From assembly GCA_030149295.1 (NCBI GenBank), contig JASBRV010000080.1:1-64000 (forward strand): a DNA stretch of 64,000 nt, in the 5' to 3' direction. Below the pieces are notes generated by a model that worked only from the letters and a program-made list of their open reading frames with translations, was not told the DNA's origin and did no database searches. Position 1 is the first letter of the stretch. Each line of letters starts with the position of its first letter. This stretch comes from Bacteriovoracales bacterium. GTDB lineage: Bacteria > Bdellovibrionota > Bacteriovoracia > Bacteriovoracales > Bacteriovoracaceae. Positions 7,365-16,440 of the stretch are shown here, piece by piece. The translations under genes were made by a program, and so were the position numbers.

Positions 7365-9473
7365 ATGAAAATGTTGGTCCAAAAATCCTTTCTTATTATC
7401 GCTACGCTAACTTTCATTGGCTGTGGCCACAATAGAGTAAGCAATAGAGTAGAAGTCACTCCATTGATTGACGGAACGCGAACTCCTGCTCAAACACAGG
7501 GCAAAGGTTGTTTTGAAATTCTTGGTGGTTTATTCAAAAGTACTAAGGTTAGTCGCCAGTTAAAAGAAGAAATGAAAGGTGTCGCCAATAAGTTTGGTAA
7601 TGATGATGGGTTAGAAAGTTTACGCGTGTTGGTTGATAGGCTTCAAGAAGAGGTAAGCCGCTTAAACGATGAAGCCTTGGAATCATCATGGTTACGCATT
7701 CGTGCCATTCATACCCGCTACAGTGAAAAAGTGGCAGATAATCATTCTAATTTTTCAGAATTAAAGGCTGAATTTCTATTAGAAACAAAAGACTTCATAG
7801 ATACCTTTTCTAAAGTGCGCCAACCAAAAGTGGCCAATCAACATCAAGAGCGACTCGAGATGTATCGCTCTATGATTGATAGACCAGAGAGGCTTCTTAA
7901 TTCTATTGATGAAGAAAGAAGGGGAGTTGAGTTTCGTCGTTATATTGCCTACAAAGATTTTGTGGACGATCTCAGCGTTTCAGATAAAGAGGAGCTTCAA
8001 CGATTTAGCTGGTGGGCGCAAAAAAATATAGAGTTTTCTGATTTTCAAGATCAAAAATTTGAAAGCCTTTTTAAAAGGAAAAGAGAAGAATTTCGAAAGG
8101 CTTACAAAAAGATGAGTAAGTCAGAAAAACAAAACCTGGAATTCTCTGGTAAAGAAAGTTCGCTAAGAAAATATAATGAATTAGCGGATAAAACTTTGAG
8201 TCTTGATTCTAATATAGATACCTTAAGAGAGGATGTTCTCCTTCTTGTAAAAACCTTTAATGATTTAGAGCCTCAGTTTCGCTCAAATGACTTTTTAGAA
8301 TGGCTCTTTAAGAAAGAGCGGATTGGACGTTCTAAATTGAGAGAAGCCTACAATCTCGCCAGTAAAGAGGGGTTTGATCTTAGGTTAGGTGATTTCATCA
8401 AACAGTCTTATAAAGAGTATGCTCCATTTCAAGATTTGGCCCCACCCGTGGTAAAAGAGGAAGCAGAAGGGGTTGTCGAAAAGGTCAAATCCTGGCTACC
8501 CACTTTTAGAGAGAAAGCACCGGAATGTGATAGCCTTGATTGCGTTATGCAAAGGACAACGAAAACGTGGAAAAGGTTCTTTAGTTTAAAATATTATAAG
8601 GACTCTTTATCATGTTTAGCCCATAATCCAGTAGTTATGAAGTCCATGGTTATGGATATGGGAATTGTTTGGGCCACACTTTATTGGCATTATCGAAATA
8701 ATAAGGAAGATTACCAACGATTTCCCTTTGAACTCATGGTCAATGGAGCTGTTTTTGCACCTATTCTGGCAGAAGCAAACTGCCGGGCCTCTTTTAAGGG
8801 TGCGCTTCCTTTTGGGGACCCTCTTCCTAAGAATGAAGTTTTTTCTTCAGCGGGGAAAAGATTTTCTCGTGCCTTTAAAAATTTCAATGGTATTGCTTTT
8901 AAAGGCTTCGTTGCAAGTGTTGGTTTGATGAGCATGACCTATGGTTTTGATCATCTCATGCTGGCACTCGGTCATGAAATTGCTAAACCTATTGCTCTTA
9001 ATAATATGCTTATTCTTCTTCCCATCACCTATCTTTATCATGGTGCCTGGATGGGAATAAAACATATGGCGGTAATTAATCCTATCCGGCATAAAATCAT
9101 CCCTAAAATGGCCAAAATGATAGAGAGGAAAACAGGCTTGAAGGGAAGCTATTGGCCAATCCAAACAGGTCTCGACTTCGGCATTTTTCAAGCTCTAATT
9201 CTTTATAATTCTTGGGATTATATTTTTCTCTATCAAGACAGGCTACTTCCAATGGTTTCGGGTGCCTTTAGCGCAGGCGTCACTTTAGACCATCAAAGAG
9301 AAATCTCTAAAGAAGGTAAGCCCCTTGATACCTTTGAAGGCGTTTCCGAGGCGGGGGTTGCTACCGAAACAGTTCTTTCTGAAGAAGATGGTAAGGTGAA
9401 GCTCGAATCAGTGGACGTTGAGGTTAAAGATGAGGAGCTAGAGTCCTGGGTAGATCAAATGCTTGGCGAGTAA
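7365..9473 (+). CDS. Large lipoprotein with coiled-coil N-terminal half and multi-helix membrane-like C-terminal half
   Basis: Lipobox TLTFIGCGH; charged helical region, then hydrophobic segments such as GIVWATLYWHY and MLILLPITYLYHGAWMG. Confidence 0.75.
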   Translation: MKMLVQKSFLIIATLTFIGCGHNRVSNRVEVTPLIDGTRTPAQTQGKGCFEILGGLFKSTKVSRQLKEEMKGVANKFGNDDGLESLRVLVDRLQEEVSRLNDEALESSWLRIRAIHTRYSEKVADNHSNFSELKAEFLLETKDFIDTFSKVRQPKVANQHQERLEMYRSMIDRPERLLNSIDEERRGVEFRRYIAYKDFVDDLSVSDKEELQRFSWWAQKNIEFSDFQDQKFESLFKRKREEFRKAYKKMSKSEKQNLEFSGKESSLRKYNELADKTLSLDSNIDTLREDVLLLVKTFNDLEPQFRSNDFLEWLFKKERIGRSKLREAYNLASKEGFDLRLGDFIKQSYKEYAPFQDLAPPVVKEEAEGVVEKVKSWLPTFREKAPECDSLDCVMQRTTKTWKRFFSLKYYKDSLSCLAHNPVVMKSMVMDMGIVWATLYWHYRNNKEDYQRFPFELMVNGAVFAPILAEANCRASFKGALPFGDPLPKNEVFSSAGKRFSRAFKNFNGIAFKGFVASVGLMSMTYGFDHLMLALGHEIAKPIALNNMLILLPITYLYHGAWMGIKHMAVINPIRHKIIPKMAKMIERKTGLKGSYWPIQTGLDFGIFQALILYNSWDYIFLYQDRLLPMVSGAFSAGVTLDHQREISKEGKPLDTFEGVSEAGVATETVLSEEDGKVKLESVDVEVKDEELESWVDQMLGE

Positions 9474-10489
9474 AGTCTCTGATCCTTATTAAATTTTAAA
9501 AATAAATCAAGGAGCTGCTTTTGCTCCTTTTCTTTTTTTTCAAGCTGAGACCATAAATGGTAAATAGCTTCCAGGGTACTAATATAGTTTTCCCGTGGTT
9601 GATGCCTAATGGTGTATTGAGAGGGGGCAGAATTATTAATCGAAATCCTCGGAAGTTGGGATAGCCAAGGGTTCTCATAAATAATTCTTTTACTCTTTTT
9701 CCAAGTGGCATCAATAAAGAGAAAAGGCCCTTGTGAGTGTTCCAAAGGGACAGTATCGCCAAGAGAAATTTCAGGATGGTCGGGATAAACAAGGGTTCCG
9801 CTTTGGGGCGAGAATTTAATTCCTTCTCTCGTATCGAGGTCCGCAAAAAATAGGTTTAAGAGATGCCATGTGGCGAAGGGATGATCCTTTTCTTTTGGAT
9901 GACGCAAAATTGTAATGGGAGGCGCAGATACCTTAGGATGAGGAAGAAATGAGCATAGGCAGCGCTCCTTTGGAAGAGCGCACAGAGAGCAAATCTTTCG
10001 TGAAAATGGAGAGAAGGCAAGGATTTGCGTCTTTTTCACCTTCTTTAAGTGAGAGGACCAACGTATCCCCCAGATATTTCCATCATCGTGACAATGAAGG
10101 TCCACCTCTCTTTCACAGAGGCCAGATTCTTTTGTGACATCGATGACTTTAAGGAGAAACAGGTTTTTCGAAATCTCCTTTGGTAGCTCTTTGACAATCA
10201 GGATATGACCGGAGTCTCCCTTGGCGGGAATGTTCTCTTTTTTCCACACGAGACAGTCATAAGCATTCAAGTTTTGAACTAAAGTGTTATTTTTCATAAC
10301 TTTAGCGTAGTCGAAATAATCCTCTGCCTTGGGTTGATCATTCAAGTCATTAGGGAAATAGCTTAGCTTTTTTAGAAGAAAAGTAATAAAGCCAGAACAA
10401 TCACATTTTAGAAGACCATCTTCAAAGCCTATCTCACGAGAGAATTCATGATCTTTGATTTGTTTTAAAATAAGCTCTATCTTTTTCAA
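9455..10489 (-). CDS. Fusion: N-terminal NlpC/P60-like domain plus C-terminal DTW domain (TapT-type tRNA acp3U aminocarboxypropyltransferase)
   Basis: N-terminal DCSGF, GDSGHILIV and VIDVTKESG; C-terminal CSLCALPKERCLC zinc-like cluster and DATWKKSKRI. TTG start overlaps the upstream TGA. Confidence 0.8.
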   Translation of the reverse strand: MKKIELILKQIKDHEFSREIGFEDGLLKCDCSGFITFLLKKLSYFPNDLNDQPKAEDYFDYAKVMKNNTLVQNLNAYDCLVWKKENIPAKGDSGHILIVKELPKEISKNLFLLKVIDVTKESGLCEREVDLHCHDDGNIWGIRWSSHLKKVKKTQILAFSPFSRKICSLCALPKERCLCSFLPHPKVSAPPITILRHPKEKDHPFATWHLLNLFFADLDTREGIKFSPQSGTLVYPDHPEISLGDTVPLEHSQGPFLFIDATWKKSKRIIYENPWLSQLPRISINNSAPSQYTIRHQPRENYISTLEAIYHLWSQLEKKEKEQKQLLDLFLKFNKDQRLYSPSI

Positions 10490-13473
10490 AAATTAAATTG
10501 AGCAATAACCGGGTCGTGATCAGCGAGTCTTCCCATGTAATCGGAATTGATATGAATGGATTCAAACCGGGGATTCATTCGCAGAAGTCGTCTATTAGCA
10601 AAAATAAAGTCAATAGCGCCGGAGTTTCCATTAAAGTTGTGAGTATAGCGATCTTCCGGTTCCGTCAGATTGCCATGAAACATGAGGTTGTTCAAAACAC
10701 CGTCACCACCGAGAGCGAGCATAGAGCGTTCGTTATGGTAGGCATTGAAATCTCCTAAAACAATAACATTAGCTTTAGGCTCTCTGCTTTCAATAAGTTG
10801 GACGAAGTTATTTACCCCTACGGCAATATTAGTTCTGTTAATATCAGAGAGGGGAAAAGGAGGTTGTGTAGAGCCCCAGAATGAGGCGTCACCAAGTTTA
10901 GAATTGAAGTGGTTTCCAATCACAAAAACCTTTTCTCCCATGAATTCAAATTGGGCGACAATACTTTTTCGCGTGTTTTTTACGGAAGGATTGTTCGGAA
11001 AAACTCTTCCCGGATTCACTGAAAGGTTTCCTTCAGGGGTGATATTGGTTTCTAAAAGAGCACCAGTACCCAAAGGACCGGATTGATCTTGCCCTTTTGG
11101 AGTAAAGTTAACGCGAGTAGAATTATAGATCATGGCCACACGGATATTTCCACCGGGCTGGCCACCTTCGTTATGATTAAGCGGATTGATATTGACGGGT
11201 TTGTAAACGACATTTTCAAGGTCACAGCGAGTCGCTTTTATGACCTTATCGAGAGTAATACTCGCGTCGTTACCACCTTCAAAGTCCCAGCCATTATTGT
11301 CTTGGATTTCTATTAGTGAAATGATGTCTGGGCATTTTAAGTTGTTGCGAATCGCCTTTCCAAGCATCTCGATTCTATCGTCTTGGTTTCCGGCTAGGTT
11401 TTCAAGATTGTAGGCGACAACAGTAAGGCTTTTATTCTTGCTTTCTAGTTTAGTTTGAGGACGACACTCAAAAGGCATCGGTCCACTAAAAAGGTCTTGA
11501 TCTAAACAGTTGATAATCTCTGAAGGACTACCATCCTCTTCTGTGGCAAATGAGGGACGAATGATGTCACCTAAGGCCAGAGAAGATTTCATATTATTAG
11601 CGTTTATCAAACCACTTTTAATCTCATTCTTTATTAGATCATTGACTTCATCTCTTTGAGCAAAGATCTCTTCACAGGTGACATCTTTAAAATTCTTTTG
11701 GAAAAGAGACATGTAGGTGGGATTGAGATACTCAAGCGAGCGAACGACACAAATCGCTTCAGGTCCATTGTTCACATTTTTATCATAGCGATAAACGGGT
11801 TGTGGAAGAACAAAAGTGTATTCTCCACCACCAAAAAGGTTACTTTCAAAACTGACAATCCCGACAACTTCACCTTTAAAAATATCGCCAATATTGTAAT
11901 GATACTCGGTAGTCAAAAGACCAGAGGGTACCTGGCACTTTTTGGCGCCATCTTGATTTGTGTAGAGGATTCCTCCTTGCTCTTCGCAGGAATCAAGATT
12001 CCTAGGGCGTGAGGGGCTAAGTCTATTAAAGTCCGCCGTAAGGTTCCCCGCGGCCATATGAATGACTTCAGGGTTAAAGTTGCCTGACATGAAGTCTTCG
12101 GTAATACCGCCTCTTTTGGTCATGTCTTTTTTACGTTCAAAACCATCGGGTACAATATAAAGACTAAGGTGGCGTTGAGGATTAAGCCTTACGAGCTCTT
12201 CATTACCACCACGAAAGCCTGAAACACGAGGATTACGAACAGCAACTCGCATTCCTTCTAATGATTCCCAAAAGTCGATACCATCTTGGAGGTTAAGATA
12301 GGGCTTGTAATTGAGGTCACCGACCCAAGTAGAAAGAACACGGTCTGGAATAGGGCGTCCCTGCTTTCCGATAAGAACTGGTGCGGGAAGGGGATGAGTT
12401 TTATTATCGAGCTTCTCTACTTTTGTAATATCTCTTAAAACTGTTTTGGACATATTTTGTTTGTTGTCCAAAGTCATAAGCTCGTAAACAGTACCAGTGA
12501 CAGAAATCCTGTCCCCAACCTTTAAACCAACAGTGTCCTCTTTAAACCACAGGTTAAGAGCATCTGAAGTTTCATCGACTCCATCACCATTAGGGTCTTG
12601 GATGATGACATCGACTCCTCGAGGATACCATTCCACATTATCAATAGCGGTAACGATACCTGTTGTGGTCACCTTATGAGCATAGAGAGGAGAGCGATGA
12701 GCATTCCCTTGAATCTCGTAAGTTTTTTTATCTCCAACATAGTTTAAAGAGTATTTACTGAAAGAGCCTCTCTTTTCAAAAAGGAGAGGTAGTGAAGTCA
12801 TCTTTTGAAGATATTGCCTAAGGATTTTATTAGCGGAGTACATTCTTCCGTCGGGAACAAAAGAGAAGTTGAGTCCATTTCGAAAGCGATAAGAAGGGAA
12901 GGTTTCTCCAGAAAAGAAAAAGTGATGATTGATGGCAACGCGATAATATTCGCTGTCTGCAAACTTTCGACCATTGGCCATTTCATAGCTTTCGGATTGG
13001 ACAACACCAGCGATGGTTTGAATATTATAATAAAGGCCTGACACTTCAATATCCAACTGATGGGTGTCTTGGATTCTAGTTCTGAGAAGCTTCTTTATAT
13101 CACGGCCTCTCATAAGACCAATACGGAATTGATCTTGGTTTCCAACGGTAGGATAAAGTTTGAGGACTTCTTCAATTTCAAAAGCAGAAGGATCTTCGTT
13201 GAGGACCGCAAATCGTTCCGTATTAATGAGGTCCCTAGGATAGAGGGCAATGTCGAGTTTAAGCTCATGAAAGAGTGCATCAGCCATTAGGTTACCAGCA
13301 GGAGTCGAGTGGTCTGTTTCCCTCACTCCTTTAGAGCTGACATTTTTTTGGATTGGTGGTTCCCCACCTAAAAGGTAGGTGCTGTTGTCAAAAACATAAG
13401 ATTTCTCACTACACGAGATAAGGCAAGAAGCTAAGAAGATGAGAATGATACTGAGTTCACTCAAATTTTTCAT
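10486..13473 (-). CDS. Secreted ExeM/NucH-type endonuclease lipoprotein with N-terminal 5'-nucleotidase C-terminal-like domain
   Basis: Lipobox SCLISCS; 5_nucleotid_C-like ETDHSTPAGNLMADAL..MRGRDIKKLL..EVSGLYYNI..YYRVAIN; OB-like TTTGIVTAID..VIIQDPNGDG; EEP motifs VVAYNLENLAG, SLIEIQDN, GNHFNSK, LGDFNAY, DHDPVIAQF. Confidence 0.85.
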   Translation of the reverse strand: MKNLSELSIILIFLASCLISCSEKSYVFDNSTYLLGGEPPIQKNVSSKGVRETDHSTPAGNLMADALFHELKLDIALYPRDLINTERFAVLNEDPSAFEIEEVLKLYPTVGNQDQFRIGLMRGRDIKKLLRTRIQDTHQLDIEVSGLYYNIQTIAGVVQSESYEMANGRKFADSEYYRVAINHHFFFSGETFPSYRFRNGLNFSFVPDGRMYSANKILRQYLQKMTSLPLLFEKRGSFSKYSLNYVGDKKTYEIQGNAHRSPLYAHKVTTTGIVTAIDNVEWYPRGVDVIIQDPNGDGVDETSDALNLWFKEDTVGLKVGDRISVTGTVYELMTLDNKQNMSKTVLRDITKVEKLDNKTHPLPAPVLIGKQGRPIPDRVLSTWVGDLNYKPYLNLQDGIDFWESLEGMRVAVRNPRVSGFRGGNEELVRLNPQRHLSLYIVPDGFERKKDMTKRGGITEDFMSGNFNPEVIHMAAGNLTADFNRLSPSRPRNLDSCEEQGGILYTNQDGAKKCQVPSGLLTTEYHYNIGDIFKGEVVGIVSFESNLFGGGEYTFVLPQPVYRYDKNVNNGPEAICVVRSLEYLNPTYMSLFQKNFKDVTCEEIFAQRDEVNDLIKNEIKSGLINANNMKSSLALGDIIRPSFATEEDGSPSEIINCLDQDLFSGPMPFECRPQTKLESKNKSLTVVAYNLENLAGNQDDRIEMLGKAIRNNLKCPDIISLIEIQDNNGWDFEGGNDASITLDKVIKATRCDLENVVYKPVNINPLNHNEGGQPGGNIRVAMIYNSTRVNFTPKGQDQSGPLGTGALLETNITPEGNLSVNPGRVFPNNPSVKNTRKSIVAQFEFMGEKVFVIGNHFNSKLGDASFWGSTQPPFPLSDINRTNIAVGVNNFVQLIESREPKANVIVLGDFNAYHNERSMLALGGDGVLNNLMFHGNLTEPEDRYTHNFNGNSGAIDFIFANRRLLRMNPRFESIHINSDYMGRLADHDPVIAQFNF

Positions 13474-14981
13474 TATTTAAGCTCCGGAATATCTCTTAAA
13501 TCAAGTTGATGAATTTGCCAGGCTGGAGAACTATTTCCTTCAGAAGTATGACTTAAACCAATTCTTATACTTTTTCCCATTAAGGACTTAGGTAAGAGTA
13601 CAAACTCTGTCTTATAGATAGACCAATCGGACCCTGGAGGATTGTTGAGTTCAAAGTTCACAGCGATCCAATTGAGTTGTTCAACTGGAAGAGATGAATT
13701 TTCCTCGGCGACCATAAGTTTTACATGATTCTTTTTTTGAAAAGGCGGATCATAAAAGTTGATGGTGTGTTCAATTCTTATATGGGGAGCACTTTTTCCA
13801 GCTAAGTTAATAGGGGCAGAATACAGAAGTTTTGTCCCTTCTGTGCCTTGACTGCCAGCTGAAACATATTTGGTTCCATTTCTTTCAGTATTTCTAAAGT
13901 CAGCAGGATTTCCTTCGATTGTCACTTGCTCAAGGTCTCCCAATTGGACTCGATTAAAATCGTGCTCCCAAATGGTAGTTCCTAGAATATCTTGGGCATC
14001 GGGATCAAAAGGTTGAGGTCTCTTCTTATAACTAAAGTCAGCAGAGACACCATAGAGTTCGAATCTTTCGATGGCCCAGGAAAGGATATGGTTTCCAATG
14101 TCGGATGCATTTCGATAAACCATCGCCATCGTGATTTTTTTGCCAGCAAATTCCTTTAAAGACACCCTTCCAGAGTCAACAGTATTAAAATTAAGCCCGA
14201 GAGGTAAATCACCCAAGCTCACTCTTTTCCATTGTTTTGGATCTCTAAAATTTACTTTGTCACCATCTTTATAAGTCGTGGAGACGTAAACCCTAAAGGC
14301 TTCATTAAGAATTTGTTCTCTATTAAAGAATGGGCGTGGTCTGAAGTGCTCTTCTAATTGAAACGAATGTCTTAGTTGATAAGCTGGGTTTTTAGTTTTT
14401 GTGAGATCAAAGGTCGGTGTTAATAAGACGGCCTGCTTATCTTCTCCTCTTACATTGATTGCGTATCTTTCTTGTTGCACGGGTCTGATCGACCAAAGGT
14501 TGGGGACATCTGTAGAACCAAAGGGGCTAACATCCTGAGAAAATCTATAAGAAAATAAGGTCCACTGAACGTCTTCAATATTTACACCTTGAATATTGGC
14601 GTAGCGAACCAGTAGAGAGTAAGCATTGTTAAAAAGCACGTCAAAGCGCGGTTTATCTCGTTCTGAGATAAAGACATCGTCATAAAATTTAATACTATCT
14701 TTTAGGCTTATGAGGGCCGAGCGGTCAAAAGGATTTTCATAGAGGCGAATGTTAGCCGCATAAATTCTTTGAATCATGCTTCGTGTGCGTTCAAAATCCC
14801 ATTCGTTAGAATTTCTTAGAAGCCGTCCCGAGTCTAAAAGGAAGTTTACTTTGTTCACTTCGTCTTCAAGTGTTTGGCCTTCGATACTCATGGGCTCTTT
14901 GACATTAACAACTTCATCATCACTACATGAAGTGAAAATGAGAAATGGCAATATAAGCATTAAGATTTTAGTTTTCATCAT
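13473..14981 (-). CDS. Lipoprotein with two jelly-roll/choice-of-anchor-J-like repeats
   Basis: Start set at MMKTKILMLILPFLIFTSCSD (lipobox); TAATG coupling to the downstream nuclease; two similar beta-rich halves. Confidence 0.7.
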   Translation of the reverse strand: MMKTKILMLILPFLIFTSCSDDEVVNVKEPMSIEGQTLEDEVNKVNFLLDSGRLLRNSNEWDFERTRSMIQRIYAANIRLYENPFDRSALISLKDSIKFYDDVFISERDKPRFDVLFNNAYSLLVRYANIQGVNIEDVQWTLFSYRFSQDVSPFGSTDVPNLWSIRPVQQERYAINVRGEDKQAVLLTPTFDLTKTKNPAYQLRHSFQLEEHFRPRPFFNREQILNEAFRVYVSTTYKDGDKVNFRDPKQWKRVSLGDLPLGLNFNTVDSGRVSLKEFAGKKITMAMVYRNASDIGNHILSWAIERFELYGVSADFSYKKRPQPFDPDAQDILGTTIWEHDFNRVQLGDLEQVTIEGNPADFRNTERNGTKYVSAGSQGTEGTKLLYSAPINLAGKSAPHIRIEHTINFYDPPFQKKNHVKLMVAEENSSLPVEQLNWIAVNFELNNPPGSDWSIYKTEFVLLPKSLMGKSIRIGLSHTSEGNSSPAWQIHQLDLRDIPELK

Positions 14982-14985
14982 TAGC

Positions 14986-16440
14986 CTATGGGGTAAAGGG
15001 TTTCGCTCCATCGAAACTGTAAGTTACAAATATTTTCAAAATCACATCTGACTTTGTAAAGGATGCAAGTTGCCTCTGTGTGATTTGTCCAGAATTACTC
15101 GATTCATAAACAACATCACTTAAGTTCGAGAAAACCGGATTTTTTGCACGCCTATATTCAAGCTCTGGGTTCACTACAAAATTTCCGTAATGCATGAAAC
15201 TCCCTGTGGCTATTTGAGTGAGTCCACCATGAGAAAGTGATTCATCGAAGTTTCTTAGACTTTGGGCACTTTCAGCGTCTCTGTGTAAGAAGTGAGCACC
15301 TTGGTAGCGAAAGGCGGCATAAGGAATAAAGGTGTCTGTGTATTCATAACCGAGGCGAAGGGAGGTTGCGTAATCGGTTTTTCCGACCCAGTCTTGGATA
15401 TTGCTATTAAAATCTGAATAAACTCTATTGAAGGCAGGGAAGGTTGTGACTTCAAACCAAGTCCCACTTCTTGTCACACGCCATGGAGCTTTACCAGCTT
15501 TGGTTGTGACAAATTCACCTTCAAAGATAAAGCCTGTTTTAAACTTAAAAATACCGTAAGCCGAAGCTGCTTGTTCAATGAGGGAGCCTGTTTCTTCAGA
15601 CTCTGTATGGCCAACAGCGCCGATCCAAACTCTGGCCTTTTCGCTACGGTAGTTCATACCAAACTTGTAACCAAAGGTCGTTCTTCTCTCCCAACGGTTA
15701 AGACCATCAACACTATTTTGGATATCAAAGTTTTCGTTGGAGGGATATAGGTATGAGGCAATACCGGCACCTGCGTAAAAGTTAAAACGATCGTCACCAT
15801 AGATCATCTCTAAACCAGGGATTGTTTTTTCAACAATGGTTATACCGTCACCTGGCGTCGGTTGAATGGATGTTGGATTTCCTTCAATGGAATAAATTCT
15901 CGTTACATCCCATGTGTTGAATTCAACACCTACTTCACCGTCGAAGTTAAAGGGATAGAAGGCCAATCTAAGATTGTCAGAAACTTTCCAATTGATACGA
16001 GAAAATTCTGAATCGAGATCAATACCAAGGGTTGTTCCTCCGTTACTTGATTCATTCGTGTTAATCTCAAGGTCAACGGTAAAATCAACTGAGCCGTATT
16101 TATGGCCGGCTAAGAGTTCAAACTGACCCGTTCGGTTATCGAGTCGATTATCTTCTGGAAATGTTTCAAAGCGACCCCTAAAAAAGGTATCATCATTTAA
16201 TTGATAGCGAAGAGAGGCACTCAATTCGACTTGGTCTCCTAGTTCTGTTTTCTTTGCCTTAGAGTAAATAAAGTCTTCATAGTAAAAGGTCTCCATGTAG
16301 AGGCCTTTCTTTTTGACGTTTTTTTTCTCGTCGACTTCAACTCTTTTTAAACCTTGAATCGAGACAGTGTCCGCTGCCCACAAATTTGTGGAAAGAGCTG
16401 AAATACATAGCAACAGAAAAAGGCGGGGAAATAATCGCAT
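14986..16440 (-). CDS. Outer-membrane beta-barrel/porin-like protein
   Basis: Signal peptide (..LSTNLWAA) and repeated amphipathic strands throughout 484 aa. Confidence 0.75.
   Translation of the reverse strand: MRLFPRLFLLLCISALSTNLWAADTVSIQGLKRVEVDEKKNVKKKGLYMETFYYEDFIYSKAKKTELGDQVELSASLRYQLNDDTFFRGRFETFPEDNRLDNRTGQFELLAGHKYGSVDFTVDLEINTNESSNGGTTLGIDLDSEFSRINWKVSDNLRLAFYPFNFDGEVGVEFNTWDVTRIYSIEGNPTSIQPTPGDGITIVEKTIPGLEMIYGDDRFNFYAGAGIASYLYPSNENFDIQNSVDGLNRWERRTTFGYKFGMNYRSEKARVWIGAVGHTESEETGSLIEQAASAYGIFKFKTGFIFEGEFVTTKAGKAPWRVTRSGTWFEVTTFPAFNRVYSDFNSNIQDWVGKTDYATSLRLGYEYTDTFIPYAAFRYQGAHFLHRDAESAQSLRNFDESLSHGGLTQIATGSFMHYGNFVVNPELEYRRAKNPVFSNLSDVVYESSNSGQITQRQLASFTKSDVILKIFVTYSFDGAKPFTP

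Follow-up and report, generated by a model that had tools for sequence, protein, structure and literature searches.

Genus-wide fusion of a papain-like domain to a short DTW-type domain in Bacteriovoracales bacteria, possibly forming a two-step RNA-modification enzyme

The window analyzed here is a 64,000-nucleotide stretch of contig JASBRV010000080.1 from a Bacteriovoracales bacterium. Its minus strand carries a four-gene run that ends in a gene joining a papain-like domain (hereafter the N-domain) to a DTW domain, and this gene meets a convergent neighbor on the plus strand. The features of the locus are as follows; counts out of seven refer to the genomes of the genus.

7365..9473, plus strand: convergent neighbor, a 702-aa ORF with a homolog at the same place in 7/7.
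9455..10489, minus strand: fused papain-like and DTW gene, 344 aa, with a TTG start and no internal stop.
9479..10000, minus strand: DTW domain, residues 164-337 (PF03942, E=2e-36; score 126 bits, cut-off 33.7).
9701..9712, minus strand: D260-A-T-W263 signature; D260 is a candidate catalytic base and W263 a candidate SAM-binding residue, by analogy with YfiP.
9953..9991, minus strand: zinc-type CxxC...CxC cluster (C167, C170, C177, C179), placed by sequence position.
10010..10489, minus strand: N-domain, residues 1-160, a probable NlpC/P60-CHAP superfamily member by family profile comparison.
10028..10045, minus strand: KKVKKT, the C-terminal K-x-K signature (19/19 cytosolic members, 0/3 secreted).
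10139..10141, minus strand: D117, possible third catalytic residue; the fused sequences of the alignment have D or E at this position.
10205..10219, minus strand: GDSGH with candidate catalytic H95; G94 and H95 are invariant in 22 relatives.
10238..10246, minus strand: W82-K83-K84, the basic signature W[KR]K...P (19/19 cytosolic members, 0/3 secreted).
10388..10402, minus strand: DCSGF with candidate nucleophile C31, invariant in 22 relatives, including the secreted ones.
10486..10489, minus strand: overlap of the upstream TGA stop with the TTG start of the fused gene, also present in the G005 ortholog.
10486..13473, minus strand: ExeM/NucH-like secreted nuclease directly upstream (PF03372 and PF02872), whose homolog precedes the fusion in 7/7.
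13473..15011, minus strand: predicted lipoprotein in the same run in 7/7, with no confident Pfam match.
14986..16440, minus strand: first gene of the four-gene run, probably secreted, present in 7/7, with no Pfam match.

The initial annotation had read positions 9455-10489 as a single minus-strand ORF bearing a Cys-His-Asp constellation, a cysteine cluster and a DATW signature, and each of these elements can be located in the 344-aa protein: DCSGF at residues 30-34, GDSGHILIV at 91-99, VIDVTKES at 115-122, CSLC...CLC at 167-179 and DATW at 260-263. The frame has exactly these coordinates, and the next in-frame ATG after the TTG start falls downstream of the C31 codon. Approximately six residues separate the last conserved stretch of the N-domain from the zinc cysteines of the DTW domain. 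In a search of 98 relatives, full-length fused homologs were recovered from all six other genomes of the genus as open frames of 354-402 aa, with identities of 31-44% in the search alignment and 28-43% over length; throughout these orthologs C31 and H95 are invariant and position 117 is D or E. A chance ORF was rejected on account of the presence of the same fused ORF in all six of these genomes, a sequencing or frame error because the fusion occurs in seven independent genomes, and a recent duplication of the parts because the genus has no other copy of either. The N-terminus of the protein lacks a hydrophobic stretch, and the fused protein is therefore most likely cytosolic, so that the earlier remark on the missing signal peptide holds, with the placement kept at "probably."

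The gene order is preserved in all seven genomes: two secreted genes, the nuclease, the fused gene in last place and then the convergent gene. The nuclease combines a 5'-nucleotidase C-terminal domain with an endonuclease/exonuclease/phosphatase domain and is predicted to be secreted; both PF03372 and PF02872 were found in all three of the nuclease proteins tested, and the copy in the window scores below the NCBIfam ExeM/NucH cut-off. The overlap between its stop codon and the start of the fused gene is a probable case of translational coupling. At the opposite end, the fused gene and the convergent ORF share 19 bases at their 3' termini (9455-9473).

The C-terminal half is a clear DTW domain, as had been proposed: it exceeds the PF03942 cut-off by a wide margin (127.9 bits in the genome scan), and the D/E-x-S/T-W and CxxCx6CxC motifs are kept in all seven fused rows. 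The sole PDB sequence match of the fused protein is the tRNA-uridine aminocarboxypropyltransferase 9kyt (E=3.6e-6). DTW proteins transfer the acp group from SAM to uridine, with the aspartate of D-x-T-W as the probable base and the tryptophan binding SAM (PMC7026641, PMC6895100), and the CXXCXXXXXXCXC motif and the roles of D137 and W140 have been described for YfiP/TapT (PMC7026641). The motifs and the Pfam match fit the more specific label "TapT-type"; an equivalence to E. coli TapT is at most putative. A tree of 65 DTW domains resolves three classes within this family of bacteria; in one of them, made up of short DTW domains (class B), the seven fused domains cluster together (100/95). E. 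coli TapT branches off outside the clade of fused and class B domains (97/89), on a long branch (1.93). The second DTW gene of the same genome falls in another class. The fused DTW domain thus appears, on this tree, to belong to a separate short subfamily distinct from the two other DTW classes of these bacteria. A profile built for class B separates its members from the other DTW classes by bit score and places them in about 41 genomes of the family.

Residues 1-160, the N-domain, alone have no match in Pfam, NCBIfam or the PDB, and PDB sequence searches with the domain, whether as a single sequence or as a profile, returned nothing real, a match to interleukin 31 at E=0.21 being rejected as chance. 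Predictions by AlphaFold2 run without an alignment reached a pLDDT of 34 for the full protein and 41 for the N-domain, and a PDB fold search with them gave no meaningful match. Family-level comparison was more informative: with hhalign, the whole N-domain family aligned to seven NlpC/P60 proteins at 90% (E=1.7e-6) and to three CHAP proteins at 94% (E=1e-7), as against about 1% or less for control families from the same loci, with the reference alignments being small enough that NlpC and CHAP themselves score only 0.9% against each other. In these alignments the DCSGF stretch falls on the DCSGF of E. coli NlpC, with the C and H aligned. The seven fused rows alone reach 49% for NlpC/P60 and 8% for CHAP, with one control also at 8%, and 98.6% against the secreted relatives; the low scores of the fused rows mean that the superfamily assignment depends on the relatives that are separate or secreted. 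In single-sequence scans, 10 of the 22 members matched CHAP weakly (best E=4e-6) and 10 of the 22 matched NLPC_P60 weakly (best E=3e-4). At the PF00877 gathering cut-off of 23 the N-domain of the window had no match, and the best relative scored 21.1 bits. The domain is best placed as a relative of the NlpC/P60-CHAP superfamily outside the family PF00877, because its profile similarity stands well above the controls but the family cut-off is not reached; the original description as NlpC/P60-like is thus retained at the level of the superfamily, whereas the expected NLPC_P60 match in the N-terminal half is absent.

All 22 N-domain relatives have C31, G94, H95 and W144, together with an acidic residue at position 117. 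The order Cys, His, polar (C31, H95, D117) matches that of the NlpC/P60-CHAP superfamily, order being all that was compared. A GD motif on the first strand has been described for this superfamily (PMC10318531); it is found in most separate relatives, and most fused rows keep D78 with the G replaced. The fused copies also lack an H-x2-D-x-R ... GxG loop present in almost all other relatives, and their activity or specificity may consequently differ. The W[KR]K...P signature stands just before the GD[ST]GH active-site stretch, with K-x-K following later, and the occurrence of both in the cytosolic but not the secreted branch is what a phosphate-rich substrate would lead one to expect.

When 369 genomes of the phylum were scanned with an N-domain profile, 22 matches were obtained, comprising the 7 fused proteins, 12 separate cytosolic proteins in the sister genera g3, g11 and g13, and 3 divergent genes (g25, f12), of which the two that were read have a hydrophobic N-terminus. 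Secreted-looking relatives also occur on a Nostoc and an Acidovorax plasmid, and in the class of Aliiglaciecola relatives are rare (4/369 genomes), the two read fully looking secreted and lacking a DTW domain. For N-domain relatives, NCBIfam gave no useful match and PHROGs only weak tail-protein and endolysin matches; neither phages nor viral contigs yielded any relative. The fusion is present in all seven genomes of the genus, answering the question of its conservation posed by the initial annotation, and in no other of the 369 genomes scanned. That annotation had also held that separate orthologs in sister genomes would count against the fusion. In g3, g11 and g13 the N-domain and the class B DTW are indeed separate genes at unlinked loci, yet all seven genomes of the fused genus carry the fusion and none keeps a separate copy of either part. 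Together, these two observations argue for a true gene fusion that replaced two co-occurring genes. All genomes with a cytosolic N-domain have a class B DTW (19/19), and the cytosolic N-domain was found in none of the approximately 328 genomes without class B; the corresponding Fisher p of about 1e-20, calculated per genome, is overstated since shared ancestry is ignored, and the co-occurrence may reflect one shared ancestry instead of repeated co-selection. Class B DTW genes are distributed over about nine genera and the N-domain over only four of these, indicating that the DTW domain works without the N-domain.

The separate N-domain genes adjoin unrelated genes, namely those for a nitroreductase, an M74 murein endopeptidase (directly preceding the N-domain gene in g11) and MutY, and not tRNA genes. 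The copy after MutY in G018 (L069:6618-7046) is truncated before the Cys, with Cys and His remaining, and appears to be decaying. The separate N-domain gene of g3 (L066, L067, L076) has a second Endonuclease I-like gene roughly 2 kb away. In g3, g11, g13 and g15 (L158-L172), Endonuclease I and a gene for a small lipoprotein lie upstream of the class B DTW gene, and the run is contiguous in two g15 genomes (L170, L171). In two g44 genomes and one g19 genome the class B gene adjoins or is near a uridine-kinase-family gene, at a distance of 9-18 bases in L175:5094-6295 and L177:4846-6089. Taken with the nuclease that precedes the fused gene, these arrangements would point to a recurring link of class B DTW with nucleic-acid scavenging, formed through two or three independent arrangements at most. 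tRNA inhibits Endonuclease I, and class B DTW may conceivably be linked to this inhibition; a literature search gave no support for such a link. A gene for an arginyl/leucyl-tRNA-protein transferase (ATE) is close to class B DTW in g3, g11 and g13.

We tentatively favor, with a confidence that stops somewhat short of even, the reading that the fused protein is a bifunctional cytosolic RNA-modification enzyme whose halves act on the same RNA site. By analogy with known DTW enzymes, the C-terminal half would use SAM as the donor of a 3-amino-3-carboxypropyl group and so form acp3U at a tRNA uridine, and the N-domain would serve as an active thiol hydrolase or acyltransferase, forming or cleaving, through C31-H95-D117, an amide or acyl linkage either on the side chain of acp or on a nearby aminoacylated group. 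Against the observed background of a conserved fused architecture with its catalytic residues kept, the replacement of two genes by one and co-occurrence across the family, we infer both the common substrate and the nature of the second step. Two features favor a shared RNA substrate: the cytosolic branch carries its basic signature, and it occurs strictly within class B genomes. NlpC/P60-superfamily enzymes work via an acyl-thioester on the Cys, and one of them, LnsA, belongs to a system that N-acylates lipoproteins (PMC7387801); acp3U is itself N-acetylated in V. cholerae, where AcpA forms acacp3U (PMC12588516, PMC10962704). Given acp transfer by DTW enzymes, thioester chemistry and known acylation of the acp group, a two-step model is thus economical. 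Against it stand the unrelated neighbors of the separate N-domain genes, with no tRNA genes among them, the loop lost from the fused copies, the class B DTW genes of genera that lack the N-domain, a co-occurrence that may stem from one shared ancestry, and AcpA, the known acp3U acylator, which is described with an acetyltransferase domain and not as papain-like. The most specific version of the two-step model, in which acp transfer is followed by a thiol-catalyzed reaction on the side chain of acp (acylation, amidation or trimming) to give a hypermodified tRNA base, we regard as rather unlikely to be correct in that detail.

The foremost alternative, doubtful though a serious contender, is that the N-domain is an independent passenger, a cytosolic peptidase or amidase for murein or small peptides that became joined to the DTW domain and was tolerated, with the two halves doing separate jobs. 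Cytosolic peptide-recycling NlpC/P60 enzymes such as YkfC do exist (PMC9928106), the wider family includes secreted members related to NlpC/P60 and endolysins, and the M74 neighbor in g11 fits a role of this kind. However, that neighbor is confined to one genus, with nitroreductase and MutY genes in the others, and the fused locus is free of any cell-wall gene; moreover, the cytosolic members carry a basic signature absent from their secreted relatives and occur only with class B DTW. Unlikely, in our view, is a non-enzymatic N-domain, i.e., an RNA-recognition or regulatory (e.g., thiol-switch) module replacing part of the basic N-terminal extension used by other DTW enzymes. The predicted pI of at least 8.9 in six of the seven fused N-domains, the loop lost from the fused copies, and the DTWD2 proteins of deltaproteobacteria and planctomycetes, in which the fusion partner is an inactive exonuclease domain with a presumed RNA-binding role (PMC4275035), are all consistent with such a module, but the Cys, His and acidic residue are kept in 7/7 at an overall identity of only 26-45%, which would be needless in a domain that merely binds. 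Finally, a nucleic-acid-scavenging enzyme, coproduced with the secreted nuclease to process modified nucleosides or protect the cell's own RNA and acting on free nucleosides or RNA fragments in place of tRNA maturation, is very improbable despite the nuclease gene preceding the fusion in 7/7 and the Endonuclease I and uridine-kinase-family neighbors of class B genes, as the arrangement with Endonuclease I may descend from a single ancestral block, leaving only two or three independent associations, and the known DTW enzymes act on RNA.

Returning to the bifunctional enzyme that we favor, several known systems resemble parts of the fused protein. It shares with E. coli TapT/YfiP, the tRNA acp3U47 transferase (PDB 9kyt), the CxxC...CxC and D-x-T/S-W motifs and a DTW domain above the Pfam cut-off, but TapT has no papain-like domain and lies outside the fused-DTW subfamily on its long branch. 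With the NlpC/P60 peptidases (C40; E. coli NlpC, MepS and MepH, and YkfC) it has in common the DCSG stretch, a downstream His and an acidic third residue, and it departs from them in an N-domain below Pfam recognition, the reduction of GD to D, the missing signal peptide and the RNA-enzyme partner. The CHAP amidases, which give the top family profile score (94%), include glutathionylspermidine synthetase (PMC10318531), in which a papain-like amidase is joined to an amide-forming enzyme and which thereby offers a precedent; there, however, the partner is a synthetase rather than a SPOUT/DTW transferase, and the motifs of the fused subfamily differ. Long CHAP proteins of 635-638 aa among the relatives (L093, L094) resemble glutathionylspermidine synthetase/amidase. 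The DTWD2-3'-5' exonuclease fusions likewise link a bacterial DTW domain to an additional nucleic-acid-related domain, but one of a different fold that is inactive, whereas catalytic residues are kept here. AcpA decorates the acp side chain of acp3U, as is proposed for the N-domain, but as an acetyltransferase-domain enzyme encoded by a separate gene. Described DTW fusions involve zinc domains, Noc2 and the inactive exonuclease (PMC4275035; Burroughs and Aravind 2014). In the literature searched, we found neither a description of a papain-like/DTW architecture, with DTW domain and NlpC mentioned together only in unrelated contexts, nor one of a papain-like RNA-modifying enzyme, in agreement with the earlier statement that no link between NlpC/P60 and acp3U had been described. 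The architecture appears to be new and its parts known.

The genus-wide fusion suggests that a second chemical step is linked to tRNA modification. If the two halves share a substrate, a superfamily known for cutting cell walls, NlpC/P60-CHAP, would acquire an RNA-related role, and acp3U would have, alongside its acetylation by AcpA, another step of decoration or editing. Even if they are independent, the whole genus has exchanged two genes for a single fused one that shares an operon with a secreted nuclease. More generally, little is understood of what acp3U does in bacteria, and a natural fusion of this kind points to a partner activity that can be tested directly.
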